Positions 5,478 to 22,792 of a DNA stretch of 64,000 bases are shown in pieces (positions within the stretch are counted from its first letter, which is position 1; every line of letters begins with the position of its first letter). The notes below the pieces were generated by a model, which saw only the letters and a list, made by a program, of their open reading frames with translations, did not search any database and was not told where the DNA came from. This DNA is from Pseudomonadota bacterium (GTDB lineage Bacteria; Pseudomonadota; Alphaproteobacteria; Kiloniellales; JACOMY01): the NCBI GenBank assembly GCA_029781795.1, contig JAKOWB010000276.1, positions 1-64,000 on the forward strand. The letters are read 5' to 3'. The translations under genes were made by a program, and so were the position numbers.

Positions 5478-6599
5478 ATGCAGCTGCGGCAACGGCGCGA
5501 CGCCCTGGGCCTCGACCTGCCGGGCCTGCGCCGCAGCCTCTGGCTGCTGGCCGGGGATCCAGGGGAGTTGCCCGCGCTGCATGCCGTGGCGACGGCGGCC
5601 GTGGATGACCGGCCCGGAATCCTGCCGGTCTTCAGTGCCGCGTCCGGACCGGCGCTGGACGCCCTCGGCCGGCGCTTCCCGCAGGAAATCGTCGCACCCC
5701 TGCCGCGACCGGACGCGGCGGATCGCGCGATCGCCGCGCGTCGGCCGGTGGCAGCCGTGGTCTGCGGGCCGGATGCGGGCTGGCAGGCAGCCTGGCACGC
5801 GCAGCTCGAGGCACGGGGCGTACCGGTGATCCTGGCGCGGCAGGCGGCGGAGCTCTCCGCAGAGCGCCTGCGCGCCGCCCTGCCTCTGCTGGATGACAAC
5901 CGCCAGCTCCGCGAGAGCCTGCGCCACGCCAGCCGGCCGCGGCGCAGCCTCGGCTATCGCCTGGCCCGCCAGGCCAGCAAGCGCCTGGCGCGCCGCCGGC
6001 TCGGCAGCTTCGCCGCGATCGCCGCGCGCCTCGGCCCGGGGCGCCCGATCATCTGCCTCGGCAATGGCCCCTCGGCGCTCGCCCTGGACCCCGCGCTCCG
6101 GCGCGGCGCCCTGCTCTTCCGGGTCAACTGGCGCTGGCGCGACCAGGCGCCGTGGAACGACCCCGATCTGGTCTTCGTCGGCGACCCGGCGACCGTGACC
6201 GCGGTGCGGGCGCCGGTCTTCGCCTTCCAGCGCCGCGACAACCTGATCGAGGCGACCCGGCGCCATCTGGCGAGGCTGTCCTGGCCCAGCTTCGACCACG
6301 TCCTGCTGGACAGCCTTGTGCTGCCCGGCGCGCCGGAAGCGCTGCCGGCACGGCCGACCAACGGCGCGCTGATGATCGCCCTGGCCGTCGCGCTGGCGCC
6401 GCCCTGGCTGGCCATCGGCGGCATCGACCTCTTCGCCCATCCCGCCGGCCGCTACGCCGGCGACCCGCACGCCGCCGGCGGCTATTACCGGGCGCACGAG
6501 GCAGTGGTCGAACTGGATTTCCTGCGCCGCGTGCTGGCGGGCTACCGGGGCGAGTTGCGGCTCGCCCCTTCGCCGCTGGCAGAGGCGCTCGGCCGCTAG
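5478..6599 (+). CDS. Possible glycosyltransferase (KdtA-N-like plus sialyltransferase-like halves)
   Basis: A 373-residue protein without a clear family match. The first 140 residues contain an alternating beta/alpha pattern with GVPVILA near 114-120 that recalls the N-terminal half of Kdo transferases. The second half has the loop ICLGNGPSAL (192-201), followed by FRVNWRW and DLVFVGD, a pattern resembling the donor-binding region of GT29 sialyltransferases or MptE-like proteins. The join of these two halves is my inference. It is divergent from degP, with a 288-base gap holding no gene. Its 3' end overlaps the convergent DUF3574 gene by four bases. Confidence 0.45.
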   Translation: MQLRQRRDALGLDLPGLRRSLWLLAGDPGELPALHAVATAAVDDRPGILPVFSAASGPALDALGRRFPQEIVAPLPRPDAADRAIAARRPVAAVVCGPDAGWQAAWHAQLEARGVPVILARQAAELSAERLRAALPLLDDNRQLRESLRHASRPRRSLGYRLARQASKRLARRRLGSFAAIAARLGPGRPIICLGNGPSALALDPALRRGALLFRVNWRWRDQAPWNDPDLVFVGDPATVTAVRAPVFAFQRRDNLIEATRRHLARLSWPSFDHVLLDSLVLPGAPEALPARPTNGALMIALAVALAPPWLAIGGIDLFAHPAGRYAGDPHAAGGYYRAHEAVVELDFLRRVLAGYRGELRLAPSPLAEALGR

Positions 6600-7480: not shown

Positions 7481-7716
7481 CTTCACCACCAATAAGAGTT
7501 GGAAGCGTCAATGCGTTACTTTTAGGTGCAAAAAACACGCAAAAGGCGCATTCGCCGTTGGTCTTTCCAGTTCGAAGATTTGAAGACTTCGCAATTGCAC
7601 AACGATTTCCTAGTGCATAAGAGTATGAGAACGGATCCCGGCAGGATTGGGCAATCTAGTTCCGGGATGGAGCCGGTCGCCACCAACTTGTGCGATCGGC
7701 AGGGGACAGGGAAAGA
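7481..7716. promoter_or_regulatory. AT-rich divergent control region upstream of the polyketide synthase
   Basis: These 236 bases are clearly lower in GC than either flank. They contain CGAAG/CTTCG arms (7573-7577 and 7587-7591), a GGCG-catt-CGCC hairpin near 7546-7557, and TTGCAC at 7595-7600 with an A/T-rich stretch about 17 bases further on that could be a sigma-70 promoter. A 64-codon open frame here (7526-7720) has no protein-like features. Divergent transcription of the TerB gene and the synthase operon probably starts here; the exact promoters are not fixed. Confidence 0.4.
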
Positions 7717-10700
7717 ATGACGACCAGGAACGATACTGCGCCACGTCCTGGCCAGATTGAGCGCTATGAAGAGCCGATTGCCATCGTCGGAATCGGCTGC
7801 CGCGTGCCCGGGGGCGCCAACAGCGCCCGCAGCTATTGGGACTTCCTCTGTGCCGGCAAGCTGGGCATCAGCGAGGTGCCGGCAGACCGCTGGGACGGCG
7901 ACCTGCTCTATGACCCGGAACCGGGCAAGCCCGGCCGGACCGTCACCAAATGGGGCGGGTTCGTCCCCGGTCTCGCGGACTTCGACAACACCTTCTTCGG
8001 TGTCTCCCCGCGCGAGGCGACCGCCATGGATCCGCAGCAGCGGGCCATGCTGCATGTCACCTGGGAGGCGCTGGAGGATGCCGGCCTGCCGCCCGAGCGC
8101 CTGGCCGGCAGCCGCACGGCGGTCTATGTCGGCGCCTCGATCAACGACTACACCCAGGTCCAGCGGCTGCGCGACACCGACGTCGATCCGCATTCCGGCA
8201 CCGGCAGCGCCATGGCGATCGTCGCCAACCGCATCTCGCACCGCTTCGACCTGCGCGGCCCCAGCGTGGTGGTGGACACCGCCTGCTCCTCCTCGCTGGT
8301 GGCGACCGACCTGGCGGTCCGGGCCCTGCTGCGCGACGACTGCACGCTGGCGCTGGCCGGCGGCGTCAATGGCCTGTTCGAGCCCGGTGTCTTCCTGAAC
8401 TTCAGCCGGGCGAACATGATGTCGCCCCGCGGCCGCTGCCACACCTTCGATGCCTCGGCTGACGGCTATGTCCGCGCCGAGGGCGCCGGCGTGGTGGTGC
8501 TGAAGCGCCTGTCCCAGGCGCTGGCCGACGGCGACCGCATCTACGCGCTGATTCACGGCACGGCCGTCAACCAGGACGGCCACACCTCGACCATCACCGT
8601 GCCCAGCGCGGACGCGCAGGCCAGCATGCTGCGGCTGGCGAACGCCCGTGCCGGCATCGAGCCGCTCGACGTCGGCTTCGTCGAGGCACACGGCACCGGC
8701 ACGCCGATCGGCGATCCGATCGAGGCGCATGCCATCGGCATGACCTACGGCAAGGCGCGCCTGGAACAGGGCGGCGTCGTGGTGGGCGCCGGCAAGACCA
8801 ATACCGGCCATGGCGAGTCCTTCGCCGGCATCCTCGGCCTGATCAAGACGGCGCTGGTGGTACAGAACGGCCAGGTGCCGCCCAACCTGAACTTCTCCAG
8901 CCCGAACCCCTACATTCCCTTCGCCGAGCTCGGCCTCGACCTGCCGCTCACCCTGCGCGAGTTCCCGAAGAGCCCCAAGGGCCGCTTCGCGGCGGTGAAC
9001 TCCTTCGGGTTCGGCGGTACCAATGCCTGTGCCGTGCTGGGCGAGGCACCGCGCGAGGCACGCCCGGTCCAGGTGCCGGTCAAGGGCAGCCCGCCGGCCA
9101 GCCTGCTGCTGCCGCTCTCGGCGGCGACGCCCAGCGCGCTGAAGACCAGTGCCGCCAGCCTGGCCGACCACCTGGAAGCGCATCCCGAGATCTCGCTGGC
9201 CGACGCGGCGGCGACCCTCACGCGTCATCGCGGCCAGCTGCAGCAGCGCCTGGTGGCCGACGCCGCCGACCGCGAGAGCTACATCACCGCGCTGCGCGCC
9301 TTCGCCGCCGACGAGCCGACCGCCGCCGCGACGCCGAACGCTCCGCTGGCCAGCGGGCGCGCCGGCGACGATCGCCGGCCGGTCTTCGTCTTCGCCGGCC
9401 AGGGCGGACAGTGGTGGGCGATGGGCCGCGAGCTCTTCGCCAAGGACAGGATCTACCGCCAGGCCATCGAAGAGTTCGAGGTGCCGTTCCGCAAGGTCGC
9501 GGGCTGGTCGATCATCGACGCGCTGCAGGCCGACGAGGCAGAGAGCCAGATCGACCGGACGCTGATTACTCAGCCGGCGATCTTCGCGCTGCAGGTCGGC
9601 CTGGTCAGCCGCTGGCGCGCCTGGGGCGTCGAGCCGGCCATCGTGCTGGGCCACAGCTTCGGCGAGGTCGGCGCCGCCTGGGCCGCCGGCGTGCTGAGTC
9701 TTGAGGAGGCCGCGCACGTCATCTTCCATCGCGCGCGCCTGTCGGGCGAGACCGAGGGCCGCGGCAGCATCATGGCGCTCGGCACCACGCCGGCCAAGGC
9801 GCGGGCGCTGCTCGCGCGTCATGGCACCCGCCGCATCGAGATCGCCGCGGTCAACGGCAGCGAAATGGTGAGCCTGGCCGGCGACCGCGAGGAGCTCGAC
9901 CAGCTGGCCGCCACGCTGCAGACGGAAGAGCCGGACCTCTTCATCCGGCCGATCCGCATGTCCTACGCGCCGCACACCTCGCTGATGGAGCCGATCCACG
10001 ACGAGCTGGTGCGGGAACTGGCGGCGGTCACGCCGCACCCGGCGGAGGTGCCGCTGATCTCCACCGTCAGCGGCGCACCGCTGGACGGCACCCTGATGGG
10101 CCCGGACTACTGGTGGCGCAACATCCGCCAGCCGGTGATGTTCAAGGCGGCGATCGACCATGCCGTCGCGCAGGGCCATCGCACCTTCCTCGAGATCGGC
10201 CCGCATTCCACGCTGTCCGGCCTCGTGCGCGCCGCGCTGTCGGAAGCCGGTGGCGGCAGCATCGTGCCGTCCCTGATCCGCGGCGAGCCCGAGGTGAAGA
10301 CCCTGCGCAGCGCGCTGGCCGGCCTGGCCGCCAGCGGCATCGACGTCGACTGGCAGGCGATCAACGGCCCCGCCGGCGCGCGCGTCGGACTGCCGGGCTA
10401 TCCCTGGGAGCAGCAGCGCTTCTGGATGGAGTCCGAGGGCTGGAGGCGGCAGTTCTTCCAGAAGCCGGTCAACATGCTGCTCGGCCGGCGCAGCTCGAAC
10501 CCGGAGCCGCAGTGGGACGGGCAGCTGGACATCCGCCAGCAGACCTTCCTGAAGGACCACGCGGTCGGCGGCTCGGTGATCTTCCCCGCCGCCGGCTACA
10601 TCGAGATCTTCCTGACCGCCGCGGCGGAGGTGCAGGGCGAGGGCCCGATCGAGCTGGAGGATATCCAGTTCAGCGAGGCGCTGGTGCTCGAGGCCGAACG

Positions 10701-13700
10701 GGTCGAGCTGATCCGCACGCGCTACGAGGAAGGGCGCCGCCGCTTCCAGATCTTCTCGCGCACGCTCGACGGCGACCCGGACTGGGTGCTCCGCGCCAGC
10801 GCCAAGCTGGGCTTCAGCAAGCCCGTGGCCGGCCCGGCCGAGCCGATCGAGCTGAAGAACAGGGGCAAGATCATCAAGCGCGAAGCCTTCTATGAAGGCA
10901 TCAACAAGGGCGGATTCGACTTCGGCCCGGCTTTCCAGAGCCTCTGGCGCCTCTACCCCGATTTCGACGAGTCGACGGGCGACATCCGGCTGAACGAGTC
11001 CCTGGCCGGCGAAGCCAGGCGCTATCACCTGCACCCGGCGCTGCTGGATGCCTGTCTGCAGGTCAGCAACGGCGCCGTCTTTCATCTCTCCGACATGGGC
11101 TACAGCGCGAAGACCGGCCTCAGGACCTATCTGCCGGTCCGCATGCAGCGCCTGCGCTGGTTCCGACAGCCCCCCAGCCGCATCCTGACCCGTGCGCGCA
11201 TGCGCCTGTTCAGCGAACTGCAGCACCAGTTCGATTTCCGGGTAACGGACGCCCGGGGCAACACGGTCGTCGAGATCGAGGGCTCGACCAGCCGCGCGCT
11301 GGGCAAGGGCAGCGCGGTGAACCGCCTGTCCGGCCCGCAGCAGGGCTATTACCACGAGACCTGGGTCGAGCGGGAAGCCGAGGCGCCGGCGAGCGAGGCG
11401 GCGCCAGGCACCTGGCTGTTGCTGGGCAAGGGCGGCGCGGTCGAGCACTCGCTGACGCGGCGCCTTGGCGGTGCCGGGCATCGTGTGCTGCATGGCCATG
11501 AACTGCTCGACCGTCTGGACGACAAGGAGACCTGGCTCGCCGCGCTCGACCGCCTCGCCGCCGAGGAAGTCAAGCTGACCGGCATCGTCCTGCTGACCGC
11601 GGCCGAACTGCCGCGCCATGCCCCCGATCCCGCCAGCCTGATGACCGAGCAGTCGGACCTGACGGCGGCCGAGATCGCCCTTGCCCAGGCCCTGGCCGAA
11701 CGCGACGGCCTGTCGCCCCGCCTCTTCGTCGTCACCAGCGGCTCGCAGCGCGTGCTGCCGGGCGACGACGGCGACGCCGGGACAGCCCTGCTGGTCCAGG
11801 CGCCGCTGTTCCATATGACACGCGTCGTGGCCACCGAGTTGCCGCGTCTGCGCGCGACGGCGTTGGACCTTCCGGCCGAAGCCGACGCCCGGTCGCTGAA
11901 GCAGCTCTGCGAGGAGATCCTGTCAGGCGGCAAGGAGCTTGAGGCGGCCTTCCGCGACGGCAAGCGCTTCGTCCGCCGCCTGGAACATGTCGTCCGCACC
12001 GACCTGCCGCCCGGCATCATGGGCGCCGCCACGGGCGAGCAGCCGGACGGCTGGAAACTGGCCATGCCGGGACCCGGCGTGATCGACGACCTGCGCCTGC
12101 GGGAGATGGTGCCGCCGGTCGCCGAGGCAGGCGAGGCCGTCATCGCGGTCAAGTCAGTCGGCCTCAACTTCCGCGACGTGATGGCGGCCACCGGCCTGCT
12201 GCCGGACGAGGCCGAGAGCGGCCCGGCCTGGCAGGCGCTGGGCCTGGAGTGCGCCGGCGAGGTGTTGAGCGTCGGCCGCGGCGTGAAGACCCTGAAGCCG
12301 GGCGACCGGGTGATGGCAGCGGCCAAGGGCTGCTTCCGCTCGCACCTGAAGATCCCGGCCGAGATGGCGTTCAAGATGCCGCGCGGCCTCGGCTACGTCG
12401 AGGCGGCGACCATCTCGTCGGCCTTCATGACCGCCTATCACGCACTGGTCGGCCTGGCTCGCCTGCAGAAGGGCGAGAAGGTGCTGATCCACATGGCGAC
12501 CGGCGGCGTCGGCCTGGCGGCCATCGAGATCGCCAAGCACGTCGGCGCCGAGATCTTTGCCACCGCCGGCAGCCCGGCCAAGCGCGAATTCCTGAAGAAG
12601 CACGGCATCAAGCACGTGATGGACTCGCGCTCGCTCGCCTTCGTCGACGAAGTGATGGCGACGACCGGCGGCAAGGGAGTCGATGTGGTGCTGAACGCAC
12701 TGGCCGGCGCCGCCATCGAAGGCGGCCTGCGGGTCCTGGCCCCCTTCGGCCGCTTCTGCGAGATCGGCAAGCGCGACATCTATGCCGACAGCGCCATCGG
12801 CCTCAGGCTGCTGCGCAACAACATTTCGTTCCACGCCATCGATCTGGCAGCGATGAGCGAACAGCGGCCCGATCTCAGCGCCAAGCTGTTCGGCGAGCTC
12901 GCCAAGCTGCTGGCCGACAAGAAGATCCGTCCGCTGCCGACCGATGTCTTCACCATCGACGAGGTGGCCGAGGCCTTCCGCCGCATGGCCAAGGCACAGC
13001 ACATCGGCAAGATCGTGGTGACGATGGACAAGCCGCCGCAGCGCGTCGAGAAGTCCATCGAGGTCGGGCCGAGGATCCGCGCCGACGGCGCCTATCTCAT
13101 CACCGGCGGCCTCAACGGTTTCGGTCTCGAGGTCGCCAAGAAGACCGCGGAACTCGGCGCCGGCTGCCTGGTGCTGATGAGCCGCTCCGGCGCAGCGACA
13201 CCGGAGGCCAAGAGCGCCGTGGCGCAGATGCGCCGGCGCGGCTGCAAGGTGCTGGTGGTCAAGGGCGACGTCACCAATGCCGACGACTGCCGGCGCGCCG
13301 TCGCCGCCGCCAACGACGCCGGCTTCCCGGTGCGCAGCGTCGTGCATGCCGCCGTGGTGCTGGACGATGCCTTCATCACGCAGCTGACGCGCGAGCGGCT
13401 TGACCGCGTCCTGGCGCCCAAGATGCTGGGTGCCTGGAACCTGCATCAGGCAACCTTGAAGCAGCCGCTCGAGGCCTTCGTCGGCTTCTCCTCGGTCGCC
13501 ACGCTGCTCGGCTCCACCGGCCAGGCGAACTACGTCGCCGGCAATGCCTTCGTCGATGCCCTGATGCGCTGGCGCCGCGCGCATGGCCTGCCCGGCCTCT
13601 CGATCGCCTGGGGCGCGCTCGGCGGTACCGGCCTGATCCAGCGCAACGAGGCGCTGCAGGGCTACATGCAGTCCATGGGCATCGAGCCGATCCCGATCGA

Positions 13701-15606
13701 CGACGCGCTCGAGGCGCTCGGCATCCTGCTGTGCATGGACCTGCCCTCGGCCGCATTCCTGGCGATCGACTGGCAGGCGCTGCGCCGCGTGGCGCCGGAT
13801 ATCGGCAACGCCACCCGTCTGGCCGACCTGGTGCAGGCCTTCTCGTCGGGCGCCGTCGGCGGCGGGCGCTTCCGCGCCGAACTGGCCGCCGCCGCGCCGG
13901 CGGCGCGCCCCGACATGCTGAACCGCTTCCTGGCCGAGCAGGTGGCCAAGGTGCTGAAGGTCGATCCGGACTCGATCGAGTTGGAGCGCCCGCTGGCCGA
14001 CCTCGGCCTCGACTCTTTGACCTCGTTCGAACTCAAGAACCGCATCGAAGCGGAGCTGGCGCTGAACCTGCCGGTCGGCCGCTTCCTGCAGCGCCCGACC
14101 CTGACGGGCCTGGCCAGTGCCATCCTCGAGGCGATCGAGAACAAGGCGCAGAACGATGCGGCGGCGACCGGCGGCGGCGCTGGCGCGCAGAGCCGCTTGC
14201 CGGCCAACGTGGAGATGCTGTGGCAGCTCTACAATCATGGCCTGCAGGCGACTGCCATGGCGGACTATTTCGAGCACGCCTTCGCCGTCAAGGTGCGGCT
14301 GACCCTGGACGAGACGCGCCTGCGCAACGCCTTCACCGAGGTCACGCGCCGCTACTCCAGCCTCCGCTCCAGCTTCCCGGCGATCGACGGCAAGCCGCAG
14401 CGCCGCGTCGCCGGCGAGCATCCGATCGGCCTCGAGGTGGTGGACGCCAGCCTGCTGGACGCCGCCGCCTTCGACGAGCTGCTGCAGGCTCGCGCCAAGG
14501 AGCTGCTCGACATCCAGAACGGCCCCCTGGTGCGGCTGCTGCTGCTGCGCCGGGGCGTCAACGAGGACGTGCTGATGCTGCGCGCCTCGCACGGCATCAT
14601 CGACGGCTGGTCGCTGGTGCTGCTGCTGGGCGAGCTGTTCGGCGCCTACTTCGGCGTCCAGGCCGTGCAGCAGGCGCAGAAGGCCGTCCAGCCGCTGGAG
14701 CTGGAAGAACTGGGCCAGTGGGAGGAAAGCTTCATCGGCAGCGAGGAGGGCCAGCGGCAGCTCGCCTACTGGAAGGGCGTCTTCGCCCAGCCGGTCGCTC
14801 CCTATCGCAGCTTCAACGGCCGGCCGCATCCGACCGGACCGCTGCGTGGCAGCGAACAGCGCCTGATCAAGCTGGGCCAGAGCCGCAGCGCCGCCGTGAA
14901 GACACTGGCGCGCGGCCGCAGCACCACCCCCTTCGCCCTGCTGCTGGTGCCGGCGGCGCTGGTCTATCGCGACGTGCTGGGACGCGACGAGCTGCTGCTG
15001 AGCAGCCTGGTCGCCGCCCGCACCCGGCCGGAGACGCTTGGTGCCATGGCGTGGCTGGCCAATCCGCTGGCCATGAAGCTGGATCTGTCGGGCCTGCGTG
15101 ACTTTGACGCGCTGGCCACGCAGGCGAGCGAGCAGGTGACGCAACTGCTGGCGAACCAGGAGCTGCCGGCCGCGCTGCTGCGCCAGTCCCTGGGCGGGCC
15201 GGCGGACTTCATGAGCGAGTTCGGCGACCTGGATCGCAGCCAGAGCGCCTGGCAGCAGATCGGATTCGAGGCGCGCCGCCCGGACAATCTGGAGGATGCC
15301 GGCTTCGGCCAGTTGATGCTAAATCAGGCCGGCACGCGCGTTCAGGTCGGCGAGCTGGATGTGGAGACCCTGGGGCTGAAGCGCGGCACGACGATGCGCG
15401 ACATGAATCTCAGGCCCAATGAAGTCGACGGCGAGATCTTCCTGCACTTCACCTACAATCGCGCGCTCTTCACCGCGACCGAGGCTGACGCCCTCGGGAC
15501 CCGCTATCTCGAACTGCTCGACCGGCTGCTGCAGGATCCCGGGCAGAAGCTGCCCGCGGCGCGCCCGCTGCTGGACATCGATCCCGCGACGCTGGCCGCC
15601 AAGTAG
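7717..15606 (+). CDS. Fully reducing type I polyketide synthase with C-terminal condensation/PapA-like acyltransferase domain
   Basis: A 2629-residue megasynthase. Domains in order: ketosynthase (about 20-450; C190 in TACSS, H325 in EAHGTG, H365 in TGHGES), acyltransferase (554-850; S647 in GHSFGE), dehydratase (930-1210; H948 in HxxxGxxxxP and D1111 in LLDACLQ), a degenerate structural KR (about 1230-1440), enoylreductase (1452-1770; NADPH loop TGGVGLAAIE), ketoreductase (1790-1975; Y1939, B-type LDD motif), ACP (2062-2140; S2100 in GLDSL) and a condensation-type acyltransferase (about 2150-2610; SHGIIDG with H2292). There is no thioesterase, so release is probably by acyl transfer to an alcohol or amine. 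One module with all reductive domains, used iteratively, would give a saturated chain. ATG 7717 is preceded by an AGGGAAAG ribosome site; GTG 7690 is less likely. Confidence 0.93.
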   Translation: MTTRNDTAPRPGQIERYEEPIAIVGIGCRVPGGANSARSYWDFLCAGKLGISEVPADRWDGDLLYDPEPGKPGRTVTKWGGFVPGLADFDNTFFGVSPREATAMDPQQRAMLHVTWEALEDAGLPPERLAGSRTAVYVGASINDYTQVQRLRDTDVDPHSGTGSAMAIVANRISHRFDLRGPSVVVDTACSSSLVATDLAVRALLRDDCTLALAGGVNGLFEPGVFLNFSRANMMSPRGRCHTFDASADGYVRAEGAGVVVLKRLSQALADGDRIYALIHGTAVNQDGHTSTITVPSADAQASMLRLANARAGIEPLDVGFVEAHGTGTPIGDPIEAHAIGMTYGKARLEQGGVVVGAGKTNTGHGESFAGILGLIKTALVVQNGQVPPNLNFSSPNPYIPFAELGLDLPLTLREFPKSPKGRFAAVNSFGFGGTNACAVLGEAPREARPVQVPVKGSPPASLLLPLSAATPSALKTSAASLADHLEAHPEISLADAAATLTRHRGQLQQRLVADAADRESYITALRAFAADEPTAAATPNAPLASGRAGDDRRPVFVFAGQGGQWWAMGRELFAKDRIYRQAIEEFEVPFRKVAGWSIIDALQADEAESQIDRTLITQPAIFALQVGLVSRWRAWGVEPAIVLGHSFGEVGAAWAAGVLSLEEAAHVIFHRARLSGETEGRGSIMALGTTPAKARALLARHGTRRIEIAAVNGSEMVSLAGDREELDQLAATLQTEEPDLFIRPIRMSYAPHTSLMEPIHDELVRELAAVTPHPAEVPLISTVSGAPLDGTLMGPDYWWRNIRQPVMFKAAIDHAVAQGHRTFLEIGPHSTLSGLVRAALSEAGGGSIVPSLIRGEPEVKTLRSALAGLAASGIDVDWQAINGPAGARVGLPGYPWEQQRFWMESEGWRRQFFQKPVNMLLGRRSSNPEPQWDGQLDIRQQTFLKDHAVGGSVIFPAAGYIEIFLTAAAEVQGEGPIELEDIQFSEALVLEAERVELIRTRYEEGRRRFQIFSRTLDGDPDWVLRASAKLGFSKPVAGPAEPIELKNRGKIIKREAFYEGINKGGFDFGPAFQSLWRLYPDFDESTGDIRLNESLAGEARRYHLHPALLDACLQVSNGAVFHLSDMGYSAKTGLRTYLPVRMQRLRWFRQPPSRILTRARMRLFSELQHQFDFRVTDARGNTVVEIEGSTSRALGKGSAVNRLSGPQQGYYHETWVEREAEAPASEAAPGTWLLLGKGGAVEHSLTRRLGGAGHRVLHGHELLDRLDDKETWLAALDRLAAEEVKLTGIVLLTAAELPRHAPDPASLMTEQSDLTAAEIALAQALAERDGLSPRLFVVTSGSQRVLPGDDGDAGTALLVQAPLFHMTRVVATELPRLRATALDLPAEADARSLKQLCEEILSGGKELEAAFRDGKRFVRRLEHVVRTDLPPGIMGAATGEQPDGWKLAMPGPGVIDDLRLREMVPPVAEAGEAVIAVKSVGLNFRDVMAATGLLPDEAESGPAWQALGLECAGEVLSVGRGVKTLKPGDRVMAAAKGCFRSHLKIPAEMAFKMPRGLGYVEAATISSAFMTAYHALVGLARLQKGEKVLIHMATGGVGLAAIEIAKHVGAEIFATAGSPAKREFLKKHGIKHVMDSRSLAFVDEVMATTGGKGVDVVLNALAGAAIEGGLRVLAPFGRFCEIGKRDIYADSAIGLRLLRNNISFHAIDLAAMSEQRPDLSAKLFGELAKLLADKKIRPLPTDVFTIDEVAEAFRRMAKAQHIGKIVVTMDKPPQRVEKSIEVGPRIRADGAYLITGGLNGFGLEVAKKTAELGAGCLVLMSRSGAATPEAKSAVAQMRRRGCKVLVVKGDVTNADDCRRAVAAANDAGFPVRSVVHAAVVLDDAFITQLTRERLDRVLAPKMLGAWNLHQATLKQPLEAFVGFSSVATLLGSTGQANYVAGNAFVDALMRWRRAHGLPGLSIAWGALGGTGLIQRNEALQGYMQSMGIEPIPIDDALEALGILLCMDLPSAAFLAIDWQALRRVAPDIGNATRLADLVQAFSSGAVGGGRFRAELAAAAPAARPDMLNRFLAEQVAKVLKVDPDSIELERPLADLGLDSLTSFELKNRIEAELALNLPVGRFLQRPTLTGLASAILEAIENKAQNDAAATGGGAGAQSRLPANVEMLWQLYNHGLQATAMADYFEHAFAVKVRLTLDETRLRNAFTEVTRRYSSLRSSFPAIDGKPQRRVAGEHPIGLEVVDASLLDAAAFDELLQARAKELLDIQNGPLVRLLLLRRGVNEDVLMLRASHGIIDGWSLVLLLGELFGAYFGVQAVQQAQKAVQPLELEELGQWEESFIGSEEGQRQLAYWKGVFAQPVAPYRSFNGRPHPTGPLRGSEQRLIKLGQSRSAAVKTLARGRSTTPFALLLVPAALVYRDVLGRDELLLSSLVAARTRPETLGAMAWLANPLAMKLDLSGLRDFDALATQASEQVTQLLANQELPAALLRQSLGGPADFMSEFGDLDRSQSAWQQIGFEARRPDNLEDAGFGQLMLNQAGTRVQVGELDVETLGLKRGTTMRDMNLRPNEVDGEIFLHFTYNRALFTATEADALGTRYLELLDRLLQDPGQKLPAARPLLDIDPATLAAK

Positions 15607-15627
15607 CGTCCCACGCATCGACCGGAC

Positions 15628-17961
15628 ATGAGCAGCGCAGATCAGCCGCGAAGCTGGCCGGGTCCCCGCGTCGAGCGGTTCGTCGAACGCGCCGCGACGG
15701 CGATCGTCGACCATCCCTGGCGCACGCTGCTGCTGGCCCTCGTCGTGCTGCTGGCCGGCATGTCCGGCCTGCCGAGGCTGCATTTCGACGCCGACAGCCG
15801 TGTCTTCTTCGGCAAGGACAATCCGCAGCGCCAGGCGCTCGACCACCTGGAGGACACCTTCGGGCGCTACAACTCGGTGGTCTTCATCGTCACCGCGAAG
15901 GACGGCAATCTCTTCACCAGGGACGTGCTGGAAGCGATCGACGAACTGACCAGGCGGGCCTGGCATGTCCCCTACTCGACGCGCGTCGACTCTATCGCCA
16001 CCTACCAGCGCACCCATGCCGAGGGCGACGACATCATCGTCGAGCCGCTCTACGAGGATCCCGCCGACCTCACGACCGAGGACCTGGCACGGGTCCGCGC
16101 GCTGGCGATCGGCGACAAGGAGCTGACCAGCCGTCTGGTTTCGGCCGACGGCCGCGTCACCGCCGTCGGCGTCGGATTGCAGCCGCCGCGCAAGAGCCGC
16201 GACGAGATCAAGGAGGTCGCCCAGTTCGCCCGCGAGCTGCAGGCAGAGATCGATGCCAAGTTCCCGTCGGTCGAGATCCGCCTGACCGGCGGCGTGATGG
16301 CCGATGTCACCTTCGCCGAGGCCGGCAAGCTCGACACCTCGACCCTGGTGCCGATCATGGGGCTCCTGATCGTCCTGTCGCTGACCATCGGCATGCGCTC
16401 GCTGGCGGCGACCATGATCACCATGCTGGTGGTCGCCTTCTCCTGCCTGGTCGCCCTGGGCGGCGCGGCGCTGCTGGGGATGAACCTGAACTCTGCCACC
16501 GGCGGCTCGCCGGTCATCATCATGACGCTCTGCATCGCGGACTGCGTGCACCTGATGACCACCATGGCGGTGAACATGCGGGCCGGGATGAGCCGGCGCG
16601 ACGCGCTGGTCCAGTCGCTGCGCTTCAATGCCGTCGCCATCTTCATGACGTCGTTCACCGACGTGTTGGGCTTCATGGCGCTGAACTTCGGCGATTCGCC
16701 GCCGCTGCAGGAGCTCGGCAACATCGTCTCGATCGGCGTCGTGGCCGGCTTCTTCTTCAGCGTCACCGTGGCGCCCGCGCTGCTGATGCTGATGCCCAGG
16801 CGCTGGCATGGCTTGAAGAACCTGGGCAGCGAGCGCTCGATGTCGCGCTTCGCCCGCTTCCTGGTGAACCGCCGGCGTGGCCTGATCACCGGCTATCTGC
16901 TGGTGGCGCTGGGCATGGCGCTGGGCCTGACGCAGATCGTCTACGACGACGACTTCATCAAGTACTTCGACGAATCCTTCGCCTTCCGGCGCGACACCGA
17001 GTACCTGCAGGACAACCTCACCGGCCTGCAGGCGCTGCAGTTCGCCCTGCCGGCGGGCGAGGAGAACGGCATCGTCCGGCCGGAGTACCTCAAGAAGGTC
17101 GACGCATTCGCCGAGTGGCTTCGCGCCCAGCCGCAGGTCGCGCACGTCAGCGCCGTCAGCGACATCGTCAAGACGCTGAACCGCAACCTCCACGGCGACG
17201 ACCCCGCCTTCGAGGTGGTGCCGGACCAGCGCGACCTGATCGCCCAGCTGCTGCTGTTCTACGAACTCTCGGTGCCCTATGGGCAGGATCTGACGACGCA
17301 GATCGACATCGCCAAGTCGACCACCAAGCTGACGGCGCAGCTGGTGCACGTCTCGGCACACGACATCAGACGGATCGGCGCGTCGGCGGAGGAATGGCTG
17401 CGGCAGAACGCGCCGGAGATGGCGAGCATCGCGACCGGGCTCTCCATGGCCTATGCCTACCTCTCCAAGGTCAATGTCGACGCCATGATCAACGGAACCT
17501 TCGTCGCGCTGACCCTGATTTCCATCACCATGTTCCTGGTCTTGCGCGACTGGCGGCTGGCGGCTCTCAGCCTGCTGCCCAACCTGATACCGGCGATCCA
17601 GGCGCTGGGCCTCTGGGGCTGGCTCGAGGGCGAGGTCAACCTTGCCGTCTCGGTCGTGGCCTCGATCTCCTTCGGCATCATCGTCGACGACACGACGCAC
17701 CTGCTGGCGAAGTTCGCGCAGGCCCGCGCGCACGGACTGGACCGCCGCGCCGCGGCCGAGGAAACCTTGTCCGAGGTCGGCTTCGCCGTCATCCTGACCT
17801 CGTTCGTGCTGGTTGCCGGCTTCGTCGTGCTCTCGGTGTCGGGCTTCGCGGTGTCGCACCAGATGGGCCTCTTGACGGCAATCACCATCGGCATCGCGAT
17901 CTTCGCCGAGTTCTGCATGATGCCGGCCCTGCTCATGTGGTCGAAGAGGAGCCCCGGATGA
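15628..17961 (+). CDS. MMPL-family RND exporter
   Basis: A 777-residue inner-membrane transporter. It has the MMPL/RND duplicated layout: TM1 near residues 32-50, a periplasmic loop, a bundle of five TM segments around 235-395, TM7 near 420, a second periplasmic loop and a final TM bundle from about 630 to 770. The motif IADCVHL in the first bundle and IVDDTTHLLAKF in the second hold the acidic and His residues of proton-coupled RND lipid exporters. It starts 21 bases after the synthase stop, so co-transcription is near certain. By position it should export the synthase product or a lipid made from it. Confidence 0.88.
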   Translation: MSSADQPRSWPGPRVERFVERAATAIVDHPWRTLLLALVVLLAGMSGLPRLHFDADSRVFFGKDNPQRQALDHLEDTFGRYNSVVFIVTAKDGNLFTRDVLEAIDELTRRAWHVPYSTRVDSIATYQRTHAEGDDIIVEPLYEDPADLTTEDLARVRALAIGDKELTSRLVSADGRVTAVGVGLQPPRKSRDEIKEVAQFARELQAEIDAKFPSVEIRLTGGVMADVTFAEAGKLDTSTLVPIMGLLIVLSLTIGMRSLAATMITMLVVAFSCLVALGGAALLGMNLNSATGGSPVIIMTLCIADCVHLMTTMAVNMRAGMSRRDALVQSLRFNAVAIFMTSFTDVLGFMALNFGDSPPLQELGNIVSIGVVAGFFFSVTVAPALLMLMPRRWHGLKNLGSERSMSRFARFLVNRRRGLITGYLLVALGMALGLTQIVYDDDFIKYFDESFAFRRDTEYLQDNLTGLQALQFALPAGEENGIVRPEYLKKVDAFAEWLRAQPQVAHVSAVSDIVKTLNRNLHGDDPAFEVVPDQRDLIAQLLLFYELSVPYGQDLTTQIDIAKSTTKLTAQLVHVSAHDIRRIGASAEEWLRQNAPEMASIATGLSMAYAYLSKVNVDAMINGTFVALTLISITMFLVLRDWRLAALSLLPNLIPAIQALGLWGWLEGEVNLAVSVVASISFGIIVDDTTHLLAKFAQARAHGLDRRAAAEETLSEVGFAVILTSFVLVAGFVVLSVSGFAVSHQMGLLTAITIGIAIFAEFCMMPALLMWSKRSPG

Positions 17962-18752
17962 TGCGACAGCTGCTCGCCGCCCTCGTCCTGACCCTGGCCG
18001 CGATCGGCGCCGCCGCGGCGGAGACGCCCGAGGAGAAAGGGTTTCGCCTGGCCCAGGAGGCCAAGGCCCAGGCCGAGGGATACAAGTACAGCACCGCCTC
18101 CGGGCGCATGATCCTGCGCACCGCCAGCGGTGCCAGCAGCGAACGCCAGTTCATCACGCAGGCGGTCGAGGTCGGCGACGGCGAGGATCGCGGCATGCTG
18201 GTCTTCACCTATCCGCCCGATATCGCGCGGACGGCGCTGCTGACGATCGGCAACAAGAGTGATGACGACGACCAGTGGCTCTACCTGCCGGCCCTGAAGC
18301 GGGTGAAGCGCATCAGCGCCGGCGGCAAGACCGGCTCCTTCGTCGGCAGCGAGTTTTCCTTCGAGGACCTGAGCGCCCCGCAGATCGAGGACTACACCCA
18401 CGTCTGGCTGCGCGAGGAACCCTGCCCCGGCCACGCCGAGATCCAGTGCGACGTGGTCGAGCGGCGGCCAAAGGACGAGGAGTCGGGCTACACCCGCATC
18501 GTCTCCTGGCAGGACCAGACCAACTACCGGTCCTACTACACGGAGTTCTACGACCGGAAGGACGCGCTGCTGAAGACTCTCACCTCCTACGACTACAAGC
18601 TCTACAAGGACCGCTTCTGGCGCGCCTCGCGGCTGGTGATGAGCAATGTGGTGACCGGCAAGAGCACCGAGATGATCTGGGAGTCCTTCGACTTCGACAC
18701 GCCGCTGGCGGCCGACGACTTCACCACGCGCGCCCTCGAGCGATTGCAATAG
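17958..18752 (+). CDS. LolA-like periplasmic outer-membrane lipoprotein-sorting family protein
   Basis: A 264-residue secreted protein; the signal peptide is about residues 1-21 (cleavage after AAAA). The mature part has the features of the LolA-like family often encoded beside RND lipid exporters: DQWLYLPALKRVKRI, FVGSEFSFEDL and a C-terminal TEMIWESFDF. It is expected to bind a lipid in the periplasm and carry it from the RND pump to the outer membrane. The start ATG overlaps the stop of the exporter gene (ATGATGA) and has a GAGGAG ribosome site, showing tight coupling. Confidence 0.82.
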   Translation: MMRQLLAALVLTLAAIGAAAAETPEEKGFRLAQEAKAQAEGYKYSTASGRMILRTASGASSERQFITQAVEVGDGEDRGMLVFTYPPDIARTALLTIGNKSDDDDQWLYLPALKRVKRISAGGKTGSFVGSEFSFEDLSAPQIEDYTHVWLREEPCPGHAEIQCDVVERRPKDEESGYTRIVSWQDQTNYRSYYTEFYDRKDALLKTLTSYDYKLYKDRFWRASRLVMSNVVTGKSTEMIWESFDFDTPLAADDFTTRALERLQ

Positions 18753-18782
18753 TAGGCGAAGCCATTGATTTGGCTTGAATAG

Positions 18783-18811
18783 TTGCGGCTGCGGGCCAGC
18801 CCGGTTAAGAT
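18783..18811 (+). promoter_or_regulatory. Possible internal promoter before the beta-barrel gene
   Basis: TTGCGG (18783-18788) and TAAGAT (18806-18811) are separated by 17 bases in the 126-base gap between the LolA-like gene and the beta-barrel gene. The match to a sigma-70 promoter is moderate and rests on sequence only. Confidence 0.3.
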
Positions 18812-18878
18812 GCTGCGCTGGATCGGGGTCCGTCGGCACGGAACCAGGGCGGGCCGGCCAGTGTGGGGGAACGAGGGA

Positions 18879-20228
18879 ATGGCTCAACGACACCGCCTGC
18901 TTGCCTGCACCGCGCTTGCCGCGGCGCTGCTCGCGTCGCCGGCGGTGCAGGCGGCGAGCCTCGACGCCGGTGCCGAAATCTGGTTCGACAACCGCCTCTT
19001 CTTCCAGCCGCCGGAATGGGAAGGGCAGACCGATGCCCGGCTGCAGCCCTCGATCGCGGCCACCGCCGACCTGACGCTGACCTCGAAGGCGGGACACGAC
19101 ACGCTGCGCCTGGTGCCCTTCGGTCGCATCGACCCCTACGTGACCGACCGCAGCCATTGGGACATCCGCGAAGGCTACTACCTGCACCAGGACGACGGCT
19201 GGGACCTGCTGGTCGGTGCCAGCCGCGTCTTCTGGGGCGTCACCGAGAGCCGCCATCTGGTCAACATCATCAACCAGTCGGACTATCTCGAGGATATCGA
19301 CGGCGAGGACTACCTGGGCCAGCCGATGGTCAACCTCAGCATTTTCGGCGACTGGGGCACGCTCGACCTCTTTGCCATGACCGGTTTCCGCGAGCGGCAG
19401 TTCCCCAACAACGCGGGCCGCTACAGCCTGCCGATCTCGATCGACGAGGGCGCGGCCGAGTTCGAATCCGACCTGAAGCACTGGCAGCCGGATCTGGCGG
19501 TGCACTTCCGCACCACGCTGGACAATTGGGATTTCGGCCTGTCGCACTTCTATGGCACCAGCCGCGACCCGCGCTTCCAGGTGGTGCTGGATCCGGCGGC
19601 CCGCTTCCTGCCCGCGTCGGTGCAGAACCAGCTGAAGTCGCTGTCGATCGACGACCTGAACAAGGTCGACGACCTGCTCGCGGGAACCGGCATCAGCACC
19701 CCGCAGGCGCTGCACATCGCCGATTCCTTCATCTCCCTGGCGCCGGTCTACGACATCATCAACCAGTCCGGCATCGAGGCGCTCGGCGTCTATGACGACC
19801 TGCTGCTGAAGTTCGAGGGCGTGACCATCACCGGCCACGGCGGCGACCGCATCTGGTCGGCGGTCGGCGGGTTCGAGTACACCTTCACCGACTTCGCCTC
19901 CAGCGGCTTCGACCTGGGGCTGCTGGGCGAGGCGATCTACGACAGCCGCGACCTGGACGACGGCCCCTACACCATCTTCGACAACGACATCTTCGCTGGC
20001 GTCCGCCTGTCCTTCAACGACCTCGACACAACCAGCGTCCTCGTCGGCGGCTATGTCGACTGGAAGCTCGGCACCACGATCCTCACCGCCGAGATCGAGC
20101 GCCGCATCTTCGACAACATCAAGCTGTCGGTCGAGGCGCGCGGCTATCCCTACGTCAGCGACCAGGATCCCCTCGCCGTCTTCAAGCAGGACAGCTACGT
20201 CCAGGTCCGCCTGTCCTTCTTCTTCTAG
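18879..20228 (+). CDS. Outer-membrane beta-barrel protein linked to RND exporter
   Basis: A 449-residue protein with a signal peptide (cleavage near residue 25, AVQA). The remainder alternates polar and aromatic residues as in beta-strands and ends in LSFFF, a C-terminal aromatic of the type recognised by the BAM machinery. Segments such as FWGVTESRHLVNIINQ and FGDWGTLDLFAMTGFRERQFP occur in uncharacterised barrel proteins found near RND and LolA-like genes. Start ATG 18879 is chosen for its position at the signal peptide and the purine-rich GAACGAGGGA before it. It probably forms the outer-membrane exit or acceptor for the exported lipid. Substrate specificity is unknown. Confidence 0.7.
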   Translation: MAQRHRLLACTALAAALLASPAVQAASLDAGAEIWFDNRLFFQPPEWEGQTDARLQPSIAATADLTLTSKAGHDTLRLVPFGRIDPYVTDRSHWDIREGYYLHQDDGWDLLVGASRVFWGVTESRHLVNIINQSDYLEDIDGEDYLGQPMVNLSIFGDWGTLDLFAMTGFRERQFPNNAGRYSLPISIDEGAAEFESDLKHWQPDLAVHFRTTLDNWDFGLSHFYGTSRDPRFQVVLDPAARFLPASVQNQLKSLSIDDLNKVDDLLAGTGISTPQALHIADSFISLAPVYDIINQSGIEALGVYDDLLLKFEGVTITGHGGDRIWSAVGGFEYTFTDFASSGFDLGLLGEAIYDSRDLDDGPYTIFDNDIFAGVRLSFNDLDTTSVLVGGYVDWKLGTTILTAEIERRIFDNIKLSVEARGYPYVSDQDPLAVFKQDSYVQVRLSFFF

Positions 20229-20234
20229 GCTGCG

Positions 20235-21449
20235 ATGCCGACCGCGCCCGAGGTCGCCGTCATCGGCGGCGGCCCCGCCGGGCTCGCCGCCGCCGAGGTC
20301 CTGGCCGGCGCCGGCCGGCGGGTCGCGGTCTTCGAGGCCATGCCGTCGCTCGCCCGCAAGTTCCTGATGGCCGGACGCGGCGGGCTCAACCTCACGCACA
20401 GCGAGTCACTTGATGGCTTCCTCGGGCGCTACCGCGGCAGCGTGGCACCGCGCCTGGCCGAAGCGATCCGCGCCTTTCCGCCCGCCGCCCTGACCGCCTG
20501 GGCCGAGGGCCTGGGACAGCCGACCTTCGTCGGCTCCAGCGGCCGTGTCTTTCCTCGCGCCATGAAGGCCTCGCCCCTGCTGCGTGCCTGGCTGGCCCGG
20601 CTCGACACCCTGGGCGTCGCCCTCTTCCCGGGCCACCGCTGGCTGGGCTGGGACAGCGACCGACGCCTGCGTTTCGCCACCCCGTCGGGCGAGCTGACGC
20701 TCCATCCCGCGGCGACGCTGCTGGCGCTGGGCGGCGCAAGCTGGCCGCGTCTCGGCGGCGACGGCGCCTGGCTGCCGCTGCTGACCGAAGCCGGCGTAGC
20801 GAGCGCGCCGCTCGCGCCGGCCAACTGCGGCTTCCGCGTGGCCTGGTCCGAGCATCTGCGACAGCGTTTTGCCGGTGCGCCGCTGAAGCCGGTGACGCTG
20901 TCGTTCGCCGGCCGCGCGCTGCAGGGCGAATGCGTCATCACCACCGAGGGGCTGGAAGGCGGCGCGCTCTACGCGCTGTCGGCCGACCTGCGCGAAGCGA
21001 TCGCGCGGCAAGGCAGCGCCGTGCTGACGCTCGACCTGCGCCCGCACCTGGACGAGGCGACGCTGGCGCGGCGCCTCGCCGACCGCGGCGGCGCGCCCTC
21101 GCTGGCAACGCGGCTGCGCAAGGCCGGTGGCCTGTCGCCCGCCGCCGCCGCGCTGCTGCGCGAGGCCGGGCCGCCGCCGCCGGCCGCCGCGGACCTGGCC
21201 AGGCGCATCAAGGCGCTGCCCCTGACCCTGACGGGCACCGGCGCCCTGGCGCGCGCCATCTCGACCGCGGGCGGGGTCGCCGAGGCCGCGCTGGACGCAC
21301 GGTGGATGCTGCGCGCCCTGCCGGGGACCTTCCTCGCCGGGGAGATGCTGGACTGGGAGGCGCCGACCGGCGGCTACCTGCTGCAGGGCTGTTTCGCCAG
21401 CGGCCGCGCCGCGGCGGCCGGCCTGCTGGCCTGGCTGGCTCAGAGATAG
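20235..21449 (+). CDS. HI0933/YhiN-type FAD-dependent oxidoreductase (TIGR03862-like)
   Basis: A 404-residue flavoprotein. The N-terminal dinucleotide-binding loop is GGGPAG (11-16), followed by the family motif KFLMAGRGGLNLTHSE and, near the C-terminus, GEMLDWEAPTGGYLLQGCFASG, which closes the FAD site in this family. Related proteins include BaiN-like flavoproteins; the biological substrate is mostly unknown. It begins six bases after the beta-barrel stop, so it may belong to the lipid export operon, though the family is also common elsewhere. Its end overlaps the convergent sulfotransferase gene by ten bases. Confidence 0.85.
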   Translation: MPTAPEVAVIGGGPAGLAAAEVLAGAGRRVAVFEAMPSLARKFLMAGRGGLNLTHSESLDGFLGRYRGSVAPRLAEAIRAFPPAALTAWAEGLGQPTFVGSSGRVFPRAMKASPLLRAWLARLDTLGVALFPGHRWLGWDSDRRLRFATPSGELTLHPAATLLALGGASWPRLGGDGAWLPLLTEAGVASAPLAPANCGFRVAWSEHLRQRFAGAPLKPVTLSFAGRALQGECVITTEGLEGGALYALSADLREAIARQGSAVLTLDLRPHLDEATLARRLADRGGAPSLATRLRKAGGLSPAAAALLREAGPPPPAAADLARRIKALPLTLTGTGALARAISTAGGVAEAALDARWMLRALPGTFLAGEMLDWEAPTGGYLLQGCFASGRAAAAGLLAWLAQR

Positions 21450-22600
21450 CCGTAGCGCCGCATCATCGGGCCGCAGTAGGCCTCGATGACCGCCGCCTGC
21501 TCGGGTGTGAGCTGCGGCTGCTGCGCGGGGCGAAAGTGCCCGCCTTCCGCCAGCGGCGTCAGGGCCGCTTCCAGCGGACCGAAGTCGCCAAGGTCGAGGT
21601 CGGCATAGACCTGCCGCAGGACCGTGATCGGATCGGCGACGAGATCCTCGTAGCGGATCTCGACCAGGTTTCCCGCGGGCACCAGGTGCCGCGTCTGCTC
21701 GTAGTGCTCGAACAGGCGCCGGAAGCGCAGGAACCCGCGGCGCGACGCGTTCGCCGGCCAACGGCGACTCATCTGACCCATCGGACCCAGCAGGCCGATC
21801 ATCTTCACCATCGAGGGCACGACCGCGCGCGGATCGCGCACGATGTGCAGCACCTTGAGATCGGGATAGAGCCGCGCCAGGGTTTCCAGGCGACCGAGGT
21901 GGGGCGGCGATTTCAGCACCAGGCGCTGCCCCGCCTTGCCGACCATCACCGCGCGGAAGAAGCGCCGCATCTTGCGATCGAACCGCGCCTGCTCCGCCGG
22001 CGTCAGGGTCGCCGGCGCCAGCCGCCGCAGCGTCTCGTCGGCGGCGAAGGGAAACATCAGTTCCTCGTAGGGACTGGGCGCCCCGGTCATCAGCAGCGCA
22101 AACTCGTCCTCCTGCGGCAAGGTGAGGTCGAAGGTCATGAAGTCCATCGGCCGCTGCCGCGGCGCGACGAGCCTGCTGAGCCAGCGCACGACGTAGCGCG
22201 AGCGCTGGAAGTGCACCGGGCAGAAGCAGGCATAGCCGTCCGGCCAGGCGTGCTTCGGGTCCTTCGCCAGTAGTTCATGCAGCAGCGTGGTGCCACTGCG
22301 CCAGTGGCCGACGACGAACAGCGGCGCCGTCACTTCCGCGCGCGCGATCCGCCGCCCATAGAGCAGCGCCGTGTAGGAGCCGACGAAGGAGTTGATCAGC
22401 GACAGCAGGGTTATCAGCACCGCGCGCGGCCAATAGCTCGGCGAGACGCGGAAGCGGTGGCGGGCCAGCAGCGCGATCCAGACCCGAAAGGGGATGCCGA
22501 ACCAGATCAGCGGCAGGTTGATGTCGCTCTTGGGCCTCGGCTGCGGAAAGAGGTCGTCTGGGACCTCCGGCAGACCAGCGTCACTCGGCACTTCGGCCAT
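21440..22600 (-). CDS. Membrane-associated sulfotransferase-family protein
   Basis: A 386-residue protein. The 5'-phosphosulfate loop is VVGHWRSGTTLLHELL (about 97-110) and the 3'-phosphate motif is VRDPRAVVPSM. A hydrophobic stretch around residues 58-82 suggests membrane contact. The start ATG 22600 has GGGGGA before it; a longer frame reaches 22657 without signal. The best resemblance is to bacterial sulfotransferases acting on lipids or glycans. It is convergent with the flavoprotein of the polyketide locus, so a link to that lipid is possible but not shown. Confidence 0.78.
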   Translation of the reverse strand: MAEVPSDAGLPEVPDDLFPQPRPKSDINLPLIWFGIPFRVWIALLARHRFRVSPSYWPRAVLITLLSLINSFVGSYTALLYGRRIARAEVTAPLFVVGHWRSGTTLLHELLAKDPKHAWPDGYACFCPVHFQRSRYVVRWLSRLVAPRQRPMDFMTFDLTLPQEDEFALLMTGAPSPYEELMFPFAADETLRRLAPATLTPAEQARFDRKMRRFFRAVMVGKAGQRLVLKSPPHLGRLETLARLYPDLKVLHIVRDPRAVVPSMVKMIGLLGPMGQMSRRWPANASRRGFLRFRRLFEHYEQTRHLVPAGNLVEIRYEDLVADPITVLRQVYADLDLGDFGPLEAALTPLAEGGHFRPAQQPQLTPEQAAVIEAYCGPMMRRYGYL

Positions 22601-22792
22601 GTCCCCCAAAGCCCCCACCCTGCGAGCGGATCGGCAGGGCCAGGACGCACTCGGCAAATCCGACGCCTCTCGGGCGGAACCTTAGCAATTAATTAGGATT
22701 TTCCGAGCAGGGATTTAGCAGGCACTGGCCTGCATGGGGGCCTAGGGTCCCGGCGCGCCAGAGAGCGCACCAGATCGAAAGGAAACCGAGCC

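Follow-up and report, generated by a model that had tools for sequence, protein, structure and literature searches.

A polyketide synthase-exporter locus of Alphaproteobacteria predicted to make and export a polyketide-derived lipid

We analyzed a window of 64,000 nucleotides that begins at the first base of a 155,976-base contig in a fragmented alphaproteobacterial assembly (454 contigs, 96.6% complete, 7.8% estimated contamination). Four genes follow one another on its plus strand: a type I polyketide synthase (PKS; 7717-15606), an MMPL/HAE3-like RND pump of 777 amino acids (15628-17961), a secreted LolA-fold protein of 264 amino acids resembling periplasmic lipid carriers (17958-18752) and an outer-membrane beta-barrel of 449 amino acids with a signal peptide (18879-20228). 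The PKS and pump genes are 21 nt apart, the start of the LolA-like gene overlaps the pump stop by 4 nt (ATGA), and 126 nt separate the LolA-like gene from the barrel gene. G+C content by codon position favors these four frames over the long antisense ORFs. A first-pass annotation of the sequence had described the same four-gene set, including the overlap and the signal-bearing barrel, and ORFs, Pfam matches and AF2 models bear it out. Two further genes were absent from that account: an HI0933-like flavoprotein (20235-21449, plus strand; PF03486, 212 bits), which starts 6 nt past the barrel gene, and, convergent with it, a PAPS-type sulfotransferase of the Sulfotransfer_3 family (21440-22657, minus strand; PF13469, 117 bits). 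The flavoprotein is an operon member only by spacing, and the searches made in related PKS loci reported no homologue of it. A scan for sigma-70 sites and terminators identified no promoter-like site upstream of the PKS, counts being near those of shuffled sequence.

The PKS gene runs from an ATG at 7717 to a stop at 15606 and encodes 2629 amino acids; the first in-frame GTG lies at 7690. Pfam recognizes KS, AT, DH, ER, KR and ACP domains, followed by a C-terminal Condensation (C) domain (PF00668, 130 bits versus a cut-off of 30.6). By inspection, we found DTACSSS, EAHGTGT and NTGH in the KS, GHSFG in the AT, HxxxGxxxxP and HPALLDACLQ in the DH, nucleotide loops in the ER and KR, the S-Y-N residues of the KR and GLDSL in the ACP. 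A single chain with this domain order and intact catalytic motifs is a fully reducing type I PKS, in agreement with the single reducing module and terminal condensation-type domain annotated at first. The protein has neither an A domain nor a TE, and no FAAL or FadD loader gene adjoins it. The AT motifs HAFH and YASH are used to assign the extender unit; the window PKS carries neither, having instead the YAPH also found in three related loci described below (L211, L261 and L262), a motif that points to no particular extender.

In the C domain, the HHxxxDG signature of NRPS-type Condensation domains reads SHGIIDG: the first His is replaced by Ser, and the second, catalytic His is kept together with the Asp and the Gly. 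The active site thus appears usable, and the best solved relatives of the domain are the C domains of teixobactin, tyrocidine and similar NRPSs. The parallel with mycobacterial PapA acyltransferases drawn in the first-pass annotation does not extend to family membership, as Pfam assigns the domain to Condensation (PF00668) and no PapA occurs among the solved relatives listed. We also rejected membership of the Pks2 phthioceranate synthases (NF041183), for which the score is 1372 bits against a curated cut-off of 2400. Conservation within the enzyme is lowest in the C domain, which shares 24% identity with its counterpart in L211 compared with 56% for the ACP, a divergence that would fit acceptors differing between lineages. 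When the C domain was searched alone, no close homologue was found in 60 relatives, 385 genomes of the class and 399 of the phylum; the domain is so divergent that such a search misses related loci. The impression of a singleton locus that it gave was discarded when a PKS link appeared on reading the DNA around many pumps. The same genome also carries C domains on two NRPS contigs (C292 and C371), which we rejected as candidates since they are separate from the contig of the locus.

The pump matches PF03176 above its cut-off (125 bits); its best NCBIfam match is the HAE3 RND family (TIGR00921), at 183.8 bits, which is under the curated cut-off of 351.9 for membership. The LolA-like protein belongs to PF17131 (192.6 bits versus a cut-off of 30) and has a LolA fold: its AF2 model (pLDDT 90) matches a Vibrio structure, PDB 3bk5, at 47% identity and TM 0.96, as well as Porphyromonas gingivalis LolA3 and a DUF1329 protein. 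The barrel ORF opens at 18783, with a likely start at 18879 that provides the signal peptide. No Pfam family matches the barrel; its AF2 model (pLDDT 91, 41 homologues aligned) shows about 20 strand segments and resembles AlgE, porins and chitoporin, with TM scores of about 0.4-0.55. The alignments behind the models held 42 barrel and 49 LolA-like sequences. On this model, we take the barrel to be of the outer-membrane channel type and assign it to no particular family.

Pump, LolA-like protein and barrel form a widespread cassette, mostly without a PKS. At E <= 1e-110, homologues 33-44% identical to the window pump are present in 58 of the 376 genomes sampled from the class and in 39 of the 399 sampled from the phylum, or about 10% of the sampled Pseudomonadota; both counts apparently include the window's own genome. 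A pattern scan of the genomes of 84,980 species retrieved 31 cassette loci, in Gamma- and Alphaproteobacteria, Nitrospirota, Verrucomicrobiota, Magnetococcales and Bacteriovorax (Bdellovibrionota). Both partner genes are nearby in 109 of 136 pump loci, some of the others being cut by contig or read ends. Many cassettes are preceded by a gene of the TetR family, of which several unrelated types occur, or by one of HxlR type. A PKS is found nearby in only three (L211, L208 and L199) of about 100 exporter loci having at least 8 kb upstream, in none of the cassettes from the genome-wide pump scan and in none of 17 further pump loci. Since most cassettes lack a PKS, the exporter by itself does not imply the lipid product proposed below, and it could have an independent substrate.

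Several cassette relatives have particular arrangements. In Bacteriovorax, an MMPL pump and a LolA-like protein are fused in one chain (L084, 2720-5812), which argues that the two act together. Two pump homologues without LolA-like or barrel genes (L079 and L093) share a conserved neighborhood that includes genes for a DEAD-box-like helicase and for oxidoreductase-like proteins. The window also contains, at 5478-6599, a gene with a weak match to the N-terminal domain of Kdo-transferases (20.9 bits, under the cut-off), and L041 and its relatives likewise have a gene with a Kdo-transferase domain close to the cassette.

The first-pass annotation had suggested looking for co-occurrence of the four genes in other genomes, and we indeed found that they recur beyond close relatives. 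The PKS-C protein and the exporter trio are together, in a conserved operon-like order, in five genomes from three alphaproteobacterial families: the window (f1), three genomes of a second family (f46: G320, G805 and G806) and one of a third (f30: G598), the latter four lying outside the window's order. In L211 (G320), a PKS of the same architecture, 47% identical to the window PKS through the ACP, is followed by genes for the pump, the LolA-like protein, a phosphopantetheinyl transferase (PPTase)-like protein and the barrel, and its stop overlaps the pump start by 4 nt. Two congeners share this PKS, their C domain being 83% identical, and have the same order: L262 (G806) through the barrel, with the LolA gene detected by tblastn, and L261 (G805) up to the PPTase-like gene, the contig ending before the barrel. 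Other genomes of this genus lack the C domain, so that the locus is patchy. The PPTase-like gene, inside the operon in all three genomes, matches the ACPS superfamily weakly (25.4 bits, cut-off 25) and has the PPTase motifs VGID and WTAFEAFLK; its position speaks for the coupling, as it links carrier-protein chemistry with export. In L208 (G598), genes for a PKS (40% identity to the window PKS through the ACP), a separate Condensation protein (motif HHAISDG), a sulfotransferase, the pump, the LolA-like protein and the barrel are closely packed, with several overlaps. Past its ACP, the L208 PKS has a region that is C-domain-like by alignment and has no Pfam match, the intact C domain being the separate gene.

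Other synthases were considered as counterparts and rejected. In two genomes of the same order, a gene for an HR-PKS of about 2540 amino acids is followed by one for a protein with the class I/II aminotransferase fold (L112, 2439-11625; L113, 279-9287), and the DNA read around them holds no exporter cassette; these loci possibly encode a long-chain amino-alcohol or sphingolipid-like pathway.

We built a phylogeny of 37 pumps, with UFBoot/SH-aLRT supports. The window pump joins those of L211, L261 and L262 at 98/93, and a branch supported at 94/95 separates these four and the L208 pump from the remaining 32. When pump, LolA-like protein and barrel are concatenated, the PKS-C-linked four are separated from the other 21 with an SH-aLRT of 99. 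Long branches lead to L208, to the window and to the L211 group, whose grouping together could be partly an artefact, the placement of L208 being less certain than the junction of the window with L211. An earlier pump tree lacking L211 and L208 placed the window beside L079 and L093, with a long-branch warning. On the simplest reading, one exporter lineage would have become tied to the PKS-C type, and is now found in the three families.

The mycobacterial sulfolipid-1 system includes a sulfotransferase, and so do two of the PKS-exporter loci, the window and L208; Stf0 belongs to a family other than Sulfotransfer_3. The window enzyme is 34% identical to the one in the L208 operon (E 5e-70), and inspection shows RSGTT and RDP, motifs that a PAPS enzyme is expected to have. 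Among 74 genomes, mostly carriers of the exporter cassette, only two gave homologues at E <= 1e-25, that of the window and G598, both of which have a PKS-exporter locus; the f46 genomes gave none. The gene is on the strand opposite to the operon in the window and within the operon in L208. The sulfotransferase is probably part of the system, as a tailoring enzyme, and sulfation of the product is plausible.

Taken together, we consider it fairly probable that the locus is a dedicated operon for the synthesis and export of a polyketide-derived lipid. Comparative genomics supports a coupling of polyketide-lipid synthesis to export across two membranes: the DNA directly shows which genes are present, that they are laid out like an operon and recur in three families, and that the PKS-linked exporters apparently form a separate lineage within the widespread cassette family. 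We infer that the product is a lipid and that the C domain transfers the chain in cis to an alcohol or amine. In the mechanism suggested by the domains, the single-module PKS would act iteratively to build a fully reduced acyl chain on the ACP, and the C domain would release it onto a nucleophile, which may be an alcohol, an amine or a carrier-bound partner. The nearby sulfotransferase may then add a polar sulfate. Judging from folds and known analogues, the MMPL pump would lift the lipid out of the inner membrane, the LolA-fold protein would take it over the periplasm with the acyl chain shielded, and the barrel would let it enter or cross the outer membrane.

The first-pass annotation knew of no described system with exactly this set, and our literature search found no described system that combines a PKS-C protein with an MMPL-LolA-barrel exporter. 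By analogy, however, a system of this kind is already known in Gram-negative bacteria. The aryl polyene (APE) cluster of E. coli CFT073 encodes ApeL (LolA-like), ApeM (RND) and ApeN (LolB-like) (PMC8253772). As in the window, a polyketide-type acyl chain and its transport are encoded in one cluster, and APE moves the chain to the outer membrane through an RND protein and a LolA-like carrier. APE differs in that its enzymes are discrete and FAS-like (type II) and that it has a LolB-like protein; the operon studied here has a type I PKS with a fused C domain and a beta-barrel instead, and by these features is not an APE cluster. A conceptual parallel is offered by the heterocyst glycolipids of cyanobacteria, which are PKS-made and exported by DevBCA, a transporter class other than that of the window.

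The same annotation saw in the locus a Gram-negative equivalent of mycobacterial lipid systems. Of this proposal, the recurrent PKS-C/exporter set stands, whereas membership of the Pks2 and PapA families does not. The sulfolipid-1 system includes Pks2, PapA1 and MmpL8 (PMC9989471), and the locus is comparable in its Mas/Pks2-like single fully reducing module, its acyltransferase of the condensation superfamily and its MMPL pump. Unlike that system, the locus has a fused, NRPS-type C domain and a Sulfotransfer_3 enzyme, lacks a FadD loader beside the PKS, and belongs to a Gram-negative envelope with a LolA-fold carrier and a barrel. We may tentatively hypothesize a Gram-negative counterpart of the sulfolipid pathway, in which a PKS with its own acyltransferase domain makes a sulfated polyketide lipid for delivery to the outer membrane, the exporter having been recruited once from the widespread cassette and kept with the PKS across alphaproteobacterial families; this narrower proposal is possible rather than probable.

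Alternatively, the PKS might make a secreted small molecule, such as a lipopeptide-like compound or an acyl amide, the cassette serving as a pump for hydrophobe efflux and self-protection. A PKS relative as close as that of L211 is a PKS-NRPS hybrid: P0003 (L105, 2000-12847; 47% identity through the ACP) has the same KS-AT-DH-ER-KR-ACP-C order, but runs on into A and carrier domains and ends in a region of about 400 amino acids without a Pfam match. The 20 kb read around it include no exporter cassette. In L199 and L254, a small ORF and a full MMPL-LolA-barrel cassette follow, on the same strand, a PKS/NRPS assembly line that looks trans-AT and terminates in a thioesterase. The L199 exporter falls outside the PKS-C-linked group in the pump tree, and we regard this as an independent pairing of the exporter with a natural-product pathway, a separate case. 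Furthermore, AmeABCD of Castellaniella defragrans, which confers monoterpene tolerance and is tied to terpene metabolism (PMC6394551), also combines an HAE3-type RND pump with a periplasmic protein of the LolA superfamily (DUF1329) and a protein of the outer membrane. AmeABCD has no PKS, its AmeA is a DUF1302 protein and it includes a fourth protein, AmeC, whereas the window barrel has no Pfam match and inspection of the operon found no AmeC-type gene. The absence of A and TE domains from the window PKS argues against a small molecule, as does that of further biosynthetic enzymes from the operon, except perhaps the sulfotransferase and the flavoprotein, while a hydrophobic chain fits both the LolA-fold carrier and a synthase with one, fully reducing, module. 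We therefore judge this alternative unlikely.

It is less likely still that the cassette keeps an ancestral traffic of long-chain hydrocarbons or fatty acids, to which the PKS would be a loosely coupled accessory. Such a role would agree with the wide distribution of PKS-free cassettes, often with TetR-type regulators, and with the induction on C28 alkane of TOL_3187/TOL_3188 in Thalassolituus oleivorans (PMC6304351). The latter has the composition of the window cassette, with MMPL and LolA-like domains and then a porin-like gene, although MMPL and LolA are there in one protein and no PKS is reported. Loose coupling is difficult to reconcile with the repeated occurrence, in several families, of overlapping same-strand genes for PKS, pump and PPTase or sulfotransferase, and with the distinct lineage of the PKS-linked exporters. 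A chance neighborhood of separate transcription units, to which the rarity of PKS pairing might point, is very improbable given the 21-nt spacing in the window, the 4-nt overlap in L211 and a gene order kept in five genomes of three families.

How Gram-negative bacteria transport unusual lipids over the periplasm and the outer membrane is poorly known. With synthesis and export of a polyketide-derived lipid as the favored reading, the locus brings together in one operon the putative maker of a cargo and three candidate transport steps, so that the cargo and each step can be approached by knockout. It also suggests a function for the widespread and barely studied MMPL-LolA-barrel cassette, and the bacteria that carry this group of clusters likely make undescribed, possibly sulfated, outer-membrane lipids.
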